From the IMG/VR virus record IMGVR_UViG_3300044846_001648, positions 1 to 21,549 of that record: DNA of 21,549 nucleotides; one strand, given 5' to 3'. Made by a program: the position numbers and the translations under genes. Source of the DNA: a virus. The notes under the pieces are model-generated. The model did no database searches. It was given only the letters and a program-made list of their open reading frames with translations, and was not told the origin of the DNA. Of the stretch, positions 16,986 to 18,699 are shown in pieces (within the stretch, counting starts at the first letter, position 1; each line of letters begins with the position of its first letter).

Positions 16986-17292
16986 TGTGTTGATTTTTAG
17001 TTACAAATTTAGTTAAGTCCCAAGCTGACCTCATCGCAGCTTTCCAATCCTTCATCTTATTCTTGCCATACTTCCAACCTGTATTGGTGTAGTGACTGAT
17101 AAATACATCAGCAAAGTTGAGCGCATCTTCTGAAGTTGCGTGTGGCATCTTCTCAAGGAAGTGGTCTGCGACTTCCTCAAGTGATGGCACAATGAAATGA
17201 GAGCCTGCTAATTTTTTCGGGAGTAGTTCCTCCAGGTGTGCTATCCTTTCTTCCAAGGATTGTACCTTTGAGATTAAAGTAAGGTTGTCCAT
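16930..17292 (-). CDS. Replication-associated protein with GWKYGKNKMKDWKA motif
   Basis: A 120-residue protein. I chose ATG 17292 (MDNLTLISKVQSLEERIAHLEELL) over an ORF start 165 nt upstream because it begins a clean leucine-zipper-like coiled coil, has an A-rich leader, and the earlier part lies inside the DnaA-like gene in another frame. After the coiled coil comes FIVPSLEEVADHFLEK, then FADVFISHYTNTGWKYGKNKMKDWKAAMRSAWDL (about residues 62-97). This FxxxY.xxGWkxGKxxMKdWKaAvRxW module is common at the C-termini of replisome-organiser-type proteins of mobile elements. Here it stands alone. It overlaps the DnaA-like gene by 116 nt. Confidence 0.75.
   Translation of the reverse strand: MDNLTLISKVQSLEERIAHLEELLPKKLAGSHFIVPSLEEVADHFLEKMPHATSEDALNFADVFISHYTNTGWKYGKNKMKDWKAAMRSAWDLTKFVTKNQHNDTIGRIQRTSLQQWLDA
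17004..17011 (-). promoter_or_regulatory. Possible internal -7 element
   Basis: TAAATTTG on the minus strand fits TAnnTTTG and lies 19 nt before the ATG of the 257-aa gene, inside the 3' end of the upstream gene. A -33 element is not evident, and in AT-rich coding sequence the match could be chance. Confidence 0.3.
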
Positions 17293-17761
17293 ATTGTAAA
17301 AGTTTTTTAGTTTGACTGCAATTATACCCATATTTCTCCAATGTCTCAAAAAATTGATTCGCATTGAACTGGTATTCCCCATCCGTTCCATACAACTCGC
17401 AGAACTTTCGAGTGCAATGGATAGCGGTAGCGTGGTCTTGATCAAATTGTTGTGCAATCCTTTGCCAAGTTAGATTCCCATCCGCTAAAAAAAGGAAGGT
17501 TATAAACATACCACGTGCATCAACTATGTTTCTTTTGCGGGATTTTTCGTGGATATCCTCAGGACTTACACCATACACCTCCTCACAACATTGGTAAAGG
17601 ATATCATTGAGCGTTTTTTGGCTATCGAATTTGTCCACAATCTCATCAAGTTCCGCAATAATCTCGGGAGTTGTTTGCTCCATCAATTCTCTCAACCGTG
17701 CAAATTGACTTTTGGATTGCACTCGCATATTGTCAATGACCTTCAGTAATAAATCATTCAT
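17177..17761 (-). CDS. Protein with DnaA domain IV (DNA-binding) only
   Basis: Start at 17761 (MNDLLLKVIDNM) is preferred over 17788 because it gives an 8-nt overlap with the upstream gene. The 194-residue protein has helical residues 1-45, then a DnaA C-terminal domain (about 48-125): ILYQCCEEVYGVSPEDIHEKSRKRNIVDARGMFITFLFL, then LTWQRIAQQFDQDHATAIHCTRKF. The DHATAIHC string matches the DnaA-box recognition signature DHSTVIHA. There is no AAA+ ATPase domain. The last 35 residues look non-native because they share 116 nt with the next gene. It may bind DnaA boxes or act as a replication or transcription regulator; this is inferred. Confidence 0.85.
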   Translation of the reverse strand: MNDLLLKVIDNMRVQSKSQFARLRELMEQTTPEIIAELDEIVDKFDSQKTLNDILYQCCEEVYGVSPEDIHEKSRKRNIVDARGMFITFLFLADGNLTWQRIAQQFDQDHATAIHCTRKFCELYGTDGEYQFNANQFFETLEKYGYNCSQTKKLLQYGQPYFNLKGTILGRKDSTPGGTTPEKISRLSFHCAIT

Positions 17762-17987
17762 TGCAGTAAATTGAAGGTTCGTGTTCATTTTCGTTTTCAG
17801 CTACTGCAAGTTCTATCAATTCGCATTTGTCCACGTTGATAAGCTTTGAAAGCTTTTCGATGTGATGTATTGACATAGTTAGCGGATAGCTTTCATACTT
17901 GCGACCAGTTGGCCAAGTGACTTCCATTGCCCTTGCAAATTCCTGCGTATTGGCAAAGTGTGTTTTGATTAGTGTTCTAAATTTCAT
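17754..17987 (-). CDS. XRE-like helix-turn-helix protein
   Basis: A 77-residue protein with a likely Cro/XRE HTH: TQEFARAMEVTWPTGRKYES (about residues 14-33) as helices 2-3, then MSIHHIEKLSKLINVDKCELIELAV as helices 4-5. The sequence is short for a repressor with a dimerisation domain, so it resembles Cro-type regulators. The C-terminus is Glu/Asn rich (AENENEHEPS). Start chosen from the A-rich leader CTAAAAAAACTAATATG. It lies between the SSB and DnaA-like genes and overlaps both reading frames at its ends. Confidence 0.7.
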   Translation of the reverse strand: MKFRTLIKTHFANTQEFARAMEVTWPTGRKYESYPLTMSIHHIEKLSKLINVDKCELIELAVAENENEHEPSIYCNE

Positions 17988-18057
17988 ATTAGTTTTTTTA
18001 GATATTCAATAAATTCTTTCGGGTCATCAAAGGTGATAACCCCCCTTAAAAAGGGAG
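17984..18057 (-). other. Candidate -1 frameshift site and 21-codon SSB extension
   Basis: On the minus strand the last codons of the SSB gene are CTC CCT TTT TAA. The heptamer C-CCT-TTT (18055-18049) fits the X-XXY-YYZ slippery form exactly. A -1 shift there reads LRG-VITFDDPKEFIEYLKKLI and stops at TGA (17986-17984), which overlaps the ATG of the next gene as ATGA. The -1 frame has no start codon after its previous stop, so it can be reached only by frameshift, non-standard initiation or an assembly indel. A short hairpin (CTCCCTT/AAGGGGGG) spans the stop. Confidence 0.45.
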
Positions 18058-18699
18058 GTCATCAGCGTTTGACAATTTGCCATCCATTATAGCGTCCTTA
18101 TACGGATTGTCGCCAGTTGTGAGATACACCTCAAATGCCTGAGCAGTTGCGCAAATGATTCCGATTTGTTTCTCCATCGGTTCGCCTTCACCTTTGTGGA
18201 GATCAACGGCGGCCTTCAAAGCTACTGCACGTGCGATATCTGCTTTATCTTCAGGACTTTTGCCATAAGATTTTGGAGCAGAACTACCACCAGTCCAAGC
18301 GGGTTTGTTGGATTGCAAAAACTTGATATTCCAATACTTGCCTTTTTGCGTGTACTCGTAATTCATCTCGTCACCTTCTTTCCAAGATGGGATTTGTGTC
18401 TTGGCGAAGCATCCGCCTACATCACCGTTTTCCATTTGTACCTCGAACTTAAAGAGGTCATTCCACGTGCCATCGTTTTGGATGGACTTGATTTTACTTG
18501 TTTTCATATTACTTGATTTATGTTGTTTTTGATATTGTTCTTCTATATGTTTTTCCTCAAACGTGTTGATGTGAACCGGCTTTCCTTTGTATGCAATGGT
18601 CACGTGCCTACCTAATTCCAACTCTCTTTCCTCTCTTTTGTTTTGAGCGTAGGTGTAAGGTTTGCCAGTCTTAAACTCATCCCAATACTGATAACTCAT
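18046..18699 (-). CDS. ssb: Single-stranded DNA-binding protein with DDLPF tip
   Basis: A 217-residue protein whose C-terminal tip is NADDLPF, the acidic-hydrophobic tail by which SSB recruits repair and replication proteins. Residues about 65-132 (MKTSKIKSIQNDGTWNDLFKFEVQ to YEYTQKGKYWNIKFLQ) are a plausible OB-fold domain with aromatics at the expected strand positions. Residues 1-64 are a basic, Tyr/His-rich extension, and 135-210 are a linker plus a helical region (ADIARAVALKAAVDLHKG). An internal ATG at 18507 starts exactly at the OB domain, so a shorter 153-residue form is possible. The OB assignment is inference; the tip is direct. Confidence 0.75.
   Translation of the reverse strand: MSYQYWDEFKTGKPYTYAQNKREERELELGRHVTIAYKGKPVHINTFEEKHIEEQYQKQHKSSNMKTSKIKSIQNDGTWNDLFKFEVQMENGDVGGCFAKTQIPSWKEGDEMNYEYTQKGKYWNIKFLQSNKPAWTGGSSAPKSYGKSPEDKADIARAVALKAAVDLHKGEGEPMEKQIGIICATAQAFEVYLTTGDNPYKDAIMDGKLSNADDLPF

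Follow-up and report, generated by a model that had tools for sequence, protein, structure and literature searches.

The SSB-like gene of this virus ends on a sequence at which ribosomes could change frame, which raises the question of whether its product has one C-terminus or two. The window, i.e. the whole 21,549-nt stretch of DNA that was analysed (IMG/VR record IMGVR_UViG_3300044846_001648, positions 1 to 21,549), carries this gene on the minus strand at 18046..18507, encoding 153 amino acids from MKTSKIK to DDLPF and closing with TAA at 18048-18046. At the gene end the minus strand reads GAT GAC CTC CCT TTT TAA GGGGGG TTATC. The acidic tip codons D-D-L-P-F occupy 18049..18063, and the slippery heptamer C-CCT-TTT (18049..18055) lies in 0-frame register with the stop codon directly 3' of it. 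The Leu-Pro pair is written CTC-CCT, which is expected in ~3% of cases by codon usage. The TAA is immediately followed by GGGGGGTTATCACCTTTGATGACCCG, and a G6 run is located directly 3' of the stop at 18045-18040. In the -1 frame, LRGVITFDDPKEFIEYLKKLI spans 21 codons (17984..18049 with its stop, minus strand) and closes with TGA at 17986-17984, which overlaps, as ATGA, the ATG at 17987 of the next gene (17754..17987, minus strand; weak Cro/C1-type HTH match). No ATG, GTG or TTG occurs in the -1 frame of the window downstream of the preceding TGA. A -1 frameshift adding this tail had been proposed in an original prediction made from the sequence alone, and its coordinates and description of the heptamer, the 21-codon open frame ending in ATGA and the missing start codon all agree with the sequence.

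Searching viral contigs with the SSB-like protein as query gave 34 loci, and a profile search seeded with patterns of the N-terminal core, away from the shift site, gave 80 loci. The focal clade (clade A) consists of the window and 52 relatives at 68–97% identity (53 loci). Because the loci were found by N-terminal core patterns, the conservation of the heptamer, the stop and the -1 frame is free of ascertainment bias, and a separate scan by DNA pattern agreed with the profile search for clade A. Homologue comparison indicated that all 53 loci have CCCTTT[T/C], TAA (47/53) or TAG (6/53), [A/G]GGGGG and an open -1 frame of 21–38 codons. Positions -8 to +9 around the last sense base are near-invariant, with the exceptions of the Z base, which is the only free position of the heptamer (T or C), and the third base of the stop codon, whereas upstream third codon positions vary freely. 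The -1 peptides follow the pattern L[RKG]G[VD][IV][TNS]F[DE]xP[KQ]x[FL][IFV]xY[LI][KR]. The tail is retained while the downstream gene differs among clade A loci. The alignment of homologues thus bears out both the heptamer and the -1 peptide.

The G6 and T5 homopolymers at the site had left room for an assembly indel or a decayed gene. Both are excluded by the homologues, in which the identical arrangement occurs at 53 loci and dozens of contigs, drawn from many metagenomes, contain the G6 and T5 runs again, with no homopolymer differences that would restore another frame; what is left of this explanation is negligible. The G6 run is considered genuine since the heptamer, stop, stem and open -1 frame are kept at 53/53 loci. 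A separate tail gene starting with ATG was also ruled out, as the tail never appears in this form among the homologues. An ATG-started overlapping micro-ORF (MTSLFKG..., requiring deletion of a G) was considered as well, and one locus (L102) lacks even that out-of-frame ATG. One extra U joins the two frames in the window sequence, and slippage of RNA polymerase from T5 to T6 would produce mRNAs encoding the extended form. However, 6 of 47 distinct relatives have TTTC, in which the run is broken, and still possess the tail; polymerase slippage would also make the 3' stem described below superfluous, and we find it hardly credible.

Coding selection on the clade A tail was examined by parsimony changes on the tree, compared in three frames, and by pairwise dN/dS with column shuffles. 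Changes by codon position in the -1 frame were 36/30/63, indicating a third-position excess, and 41 synonymous codon changes were observed vs 20.8 expected. The other two frames showed no clear excess (16 vs 24.7 expected and 25 vs 22.2 expected), and stop codons were gained and lost in both over the tail region. The -1 frame excess persisted downstream of the RNA stem, with 28 synonymous changes vs 12.3 expected. Pairwise dN/dS was 0.46 in the -1 frame vs ~1.05 in the others, and 3 of 100 column shuffles were as low. As judged from these substitution patterns, the clade A tail peptide is under coding selection, and the coding signature is present in the -1 frame only, in line with the protein-like character that had been ascribed to the peptide. 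Another possibility is that the frameshift chiefly delivers ribosomes to the ATG of the next gene by translational coupling and that the tail is a by-product. The tail indeed ends at the next ATG or a few codons beyond, with ATGA tail ends in 27/53 clade A loci and in 38/42 loci of the sister clade B described below. Selection on the peptide itself and the persistence of the tail when the next gene changes argue against this reading, and we regard it as unlikely, although the frameshift may, as a second effect, couple translation to the next gene through ATGA.

The heptamer is followed by a 6-nt spacer, TAAGGG (18043..18048, minus strand), and by a predicted 3' stimulatory stem-loop, GGGUUAUCA-CCUU-UGAUGACCC (18021..18042, minus strand), with a 9-bp stem, an energy of -12.9 kcal/mol and a z score of -4.1 in the window. 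The stem is predicted in every distinct relative, starting 4–6 nt past the heptamer (6 nt in the main type, 5 nt in the D type and 4 nt at one locus). This spacing in clade A agrees with that usual for -1 sites, which is 5–9 nt (PMC5009743). Compared with synonymous recodings that preserve the peptide, the 3' stem is more stable in 42 of 43 sequences, and the mean stem energy is -12.6 kcal/mol vs -4.2 kcal/mol for the recodings. The D-type lineage shows a joint change of both arms, from GGGUUAUCA/UGAUGACCC to GGGGAC/GUCCCC; this is a single lineage event and not repeated covariation, and the changes within the main type are one-sided. No Shine-Dalgarno-like stimulator was seen upstream of the heptamer. 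The most stable predicted fold of the naked RNA is a larger alternative hairpin around the shift site and the stop (18035..18063, minus strand; approximately -20 kcal/mol), which is also conserved. It was initially assumed to be the stimulator but was ruled out in this role since a ribosome on the site would prevent it from forming, and for the same reason the mechanism proposed here rests on the heptamer, stop, spacer and stem. Its conservation is explained mostly by the heptamer and the 3' stem, and it may be a switch or a by-product. The original prediction was right in its description of the shift site and missed the 3' stem-loop, this larger hairpin and the sister clade with UGA.

A stop codon after the shift codon and a hairpin around it also resemble the bypassing site of T4 gene 60 (PMC5009743). 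By that route, peptidyl-tRNA(Phe) would leave UUU at the stop and land on a UUU 18 nt downstream with AAGGGGGG as an SD-like guide, yielding DDLPF-DDPKEFIEYLKKLI. The locus offers matched Phe codons (UUY at take-off and an invariant UUU at 18031-18029) and a G run ~8 nt before the landing codon, a layout as in the T4 case. However, the length of the gap is constant in 53/53 loci and its nucleotides vary like codons (I/V, T/N/S and all four ACN third bases), and the criterion of a non-coding gap is not met. Bypassing would moreover render the conserved slippery heptamer and the correctly spaced 3' stem superfluous, and it receives very little credence from us.

The heptamer, the 0-frame stop, the open and coding -1 frame and the spaced 3' stem are all present and constitute a canonical -1 frameshift signal, in a gene where one was not expected. 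We therefore favour, with a probability of about 0.86, a programmed -1 ribosomal frameshift in the final codons of the phage SSB-like gene that yields two tail isoforms. This reading, preferred from the outset, is well supported by the conserved heptamer and peptide and the properly spaced stem-loop, although the product itself is unseen. The shift site, stem, frame and peptide selection are established at the level of sequence comparison, while the occurrence of slippage and its frequency are inferred. The majority of ribosomes would read CCT-TTT and stop at UAA, and the acidic tip of their product, SSB-...DDLPF, would be free. On some ribosomes, stalled by the stem-loop that begins 6 nt further on just before the stop codon moves into the A site, the Pro and Phe tRNAs would slip from C-CCU-UUU to CCC-UUU. 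After the slip, 21 more codons would be translated to give DDLPF-LRGVITFDDPKEFIEYLKKLI, presumably as a minority isoform.

Sites for -1 frameshifting of such architecture are well known. The X-XXY-YYZ heptamer with a 3' stem-loop at ~6 nt is shared with E. coli dnaX, IS elements and West Nile virus NS1', and the pairing of two products with a common N-terminus is the same as in canonical -1 frameshifting. The heptamer C_CCU_UUU is identical to the established shift site of West Nile virus (PMC11507841). Its efficiency is unestablished for the unknown host of this phage, and in the absence of protein or reporter data its use here remains an inference. The site differs from canonical ones in that it lies in an SSB-like gene with the 0-frame stop directly 3' of the heptamer, and in that the shift would add a short tail hiding a C-terminal binding tip, with no new domain or enzyme.

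Sister clade B comprises 42 loci (L147-L165, L173, L195-L203 and L213-L225) at ~41–50% identity to the window's protein and forms one side of a fully supported branch in the tree. The arrangement of slippery heptamer plus stem is absent from these 42 loci. The clade B gene ends with DLPF-UGA or a close variant (tips DDLPF, NDLPF, GDLPF and similar), followed by an in-frame tail with the pattern [IM]PxEWIxxLxLxxE in subclade B1 (20 loci) and M[HI]E[TA]IKILKPLL or KQEVLRILEPLKPIII in subclade B2. The B1 tail in frame 0 has a dN/dS of 0.245, with 0 of 100 shuffles as low, and 25 synonymous changes vs 11.3 expected. The B2 tail tested alone gave no significant coding signal. The first tail codon in B1 is ATA, ATT or ATC, and ATG only once, and is therefore unlike an initiation codon. 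In B2 the codon next to UGA is ATG in 17 loci and AAG or AAA in five.

These codons also bear on termination followed by non-AUG re-initiation just past the stop, which would release a free micro-protein and leave the SSB-like protein without an extension. Its best evidence is the SD-like G6 run after the stop and the ATG in the 17 B2 loci. No start codon is conserved, however: clade A has ATC or GTC, B1 has the codons given above, and five B2 loci have AAG or AAA. Re-initiation would also leave the conserved heptamer unexplained, and we judge it very unlikely.

The stop context UGA-A is found at 42/42 clade B genes vs 11/86 non-overlapping stops in the same loci, although the loci are related and the count is not a probability. 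With a fixed UGA, a conserved in-frame tail and no conserved start codon, clade B meets the criteria for readthrough (B2 alone being weak). These sequence features suggest that UGA readthrough adds the clade B tail, for which there are no readthrough protein data and, in B2, weak statistics. Inspection of 21 sister loci revealed no tRNA gene and, accordingly, no suppressor tRNA. In the model of the extended clade B protein, the tail is a short helix of low confidence. Readthrough of the stop codon of the Q-beta coat gene produces A1, a minority C-terminally extended form. Clade B resembles this system in having UGA-A followed by a conserved in-frame tail and, putatively, a minority extended form; the differences are that the focal clade frameshifts and that the extension, on a DNA-binding protein, is 12–22 residues. 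The likeness between the clade A and clade B tails is marginal (p 0.04), and homology is therefore not claimed. More distant relatives (~29–36% identity) have TAA and no comparable tail, and a tail fused in frame without a stop or shift was not found among the relatives examined.

The identity of the protein itself was assessed by structure prediction. The AlphaFold model has a confident five-stranded OB-like barrel at residues 2–63 (pLDDT ~90) and helices at 85–141, followed by DDLPF, which is kept in the focal clade. Structural neighbours are mostly OB-fold nucleic-acid proteins, including RecO, RPA14 and an SSB, with modest Z scores of 5–6.6, and Foldseek matches have E > 0.02. No Pfam or NCBIfam match was obtained at a meaningful score, although a divergent phage SSB could be missed; PHROGs matches are of unknown function only, and a sequence search of solved structures returned no SSB. 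SSB identity is thus likely on the basis of the predicted OB fold and the DDLPF tip, in the absence of a profile match, and ssDNA binding is inferred. The acidic tip ending in Pro-Phe is similar to that of bacterial SSB (PMC10164576), from which this protein differs in lacking an SSB-family profile match, in the separate helical domain before the tip and in the recoded extension past it. Among phage records, the protein gave weak matches to Vibrio phage ICP2 only, and tblastn of the tail gave none. No relative was found in a scan of genome contigs with the protein, and a terminase scan of the same kind found one distant contig with no stated host.

The SSB tip is a docking hub for replication and repair proteins and must be the very C-terminus. 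Partners of E. coli SSB bury the terminal Phe and hold its alpha-carboxyl, and deletion of this Phe abolishes binding (PMC10164576). By analogy with this biochemistry, docking would be disabled in any extended subunit, and the shift is inferred to mask the DDLPF tip. The long form, with its acidic tip lacking a free C-terminal Phe, would fail to dock tip-binding partners and should instead present a short amphipathic helix, the partner of which is unknown. The conserved tail pattern P-x-[ED]-hydrophobic-x-x-L suggests such a helix binding something else, the function being inferred from sequence. Mixed SSB assemblies would carry both tails in a set ratio.

The in-frame tail behind UGA in clade B lends independent support to the view that a tail on the SSB-like protein is worth keeping. 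Since no member with an in-frame fused tail was found, the ratio, and not the tail alone, would be the selected trait. On balance, though with considerable reserve, we lean towards a broader model in which an optional tail behind the tip is under recoding control, the mode of which has switched in evolution between a -1 frameshift with a dedicated stem-loop and UGA readthrough in the sister clade, and recoding sets the proportions of tip-exposed and tip-masked SSB at the phage replication fork. A recoding site exactly at the SSB tip would be an economical route to a set fraction of SSB whose tail is masked or exchanged. The open papers searched contained no description of recoding in an SSB gene or of a frameshift acting on the SSB tip. 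Most unusual would be the exchange of frameshift and readthrough in sister clades, which, if true, would be a clean natural experiment on the evolution of recoding signals.

Several further features of the locus were observed. Modular exchange is evident in the SSB-like proteins: the C-terminal half in L027 and L146 differs from that of the other clade A members, with a near-identical shift site and tail, and the B1 proteins of L215 and L199 pair two different OB domains with one C-terminal half. Upstream, the SSB-like frame stays open as far as an ATG at 18699 (18508-18699, minus strand), which adds 64 residues (MSYQYWDEF...). These represent either an N-terminal domain fused to the protein or a separate gene that has no stop codon of its own; this extension is present in most, not all, relatives. 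Two genes after the SSB-like gene, 17177-17788 (minus strand) encodes a small protein with a DnaA C-terminal DNA-binding domain (PF08299, E 2e-10), which is possibly a replication initiator or helicase-loader partner.
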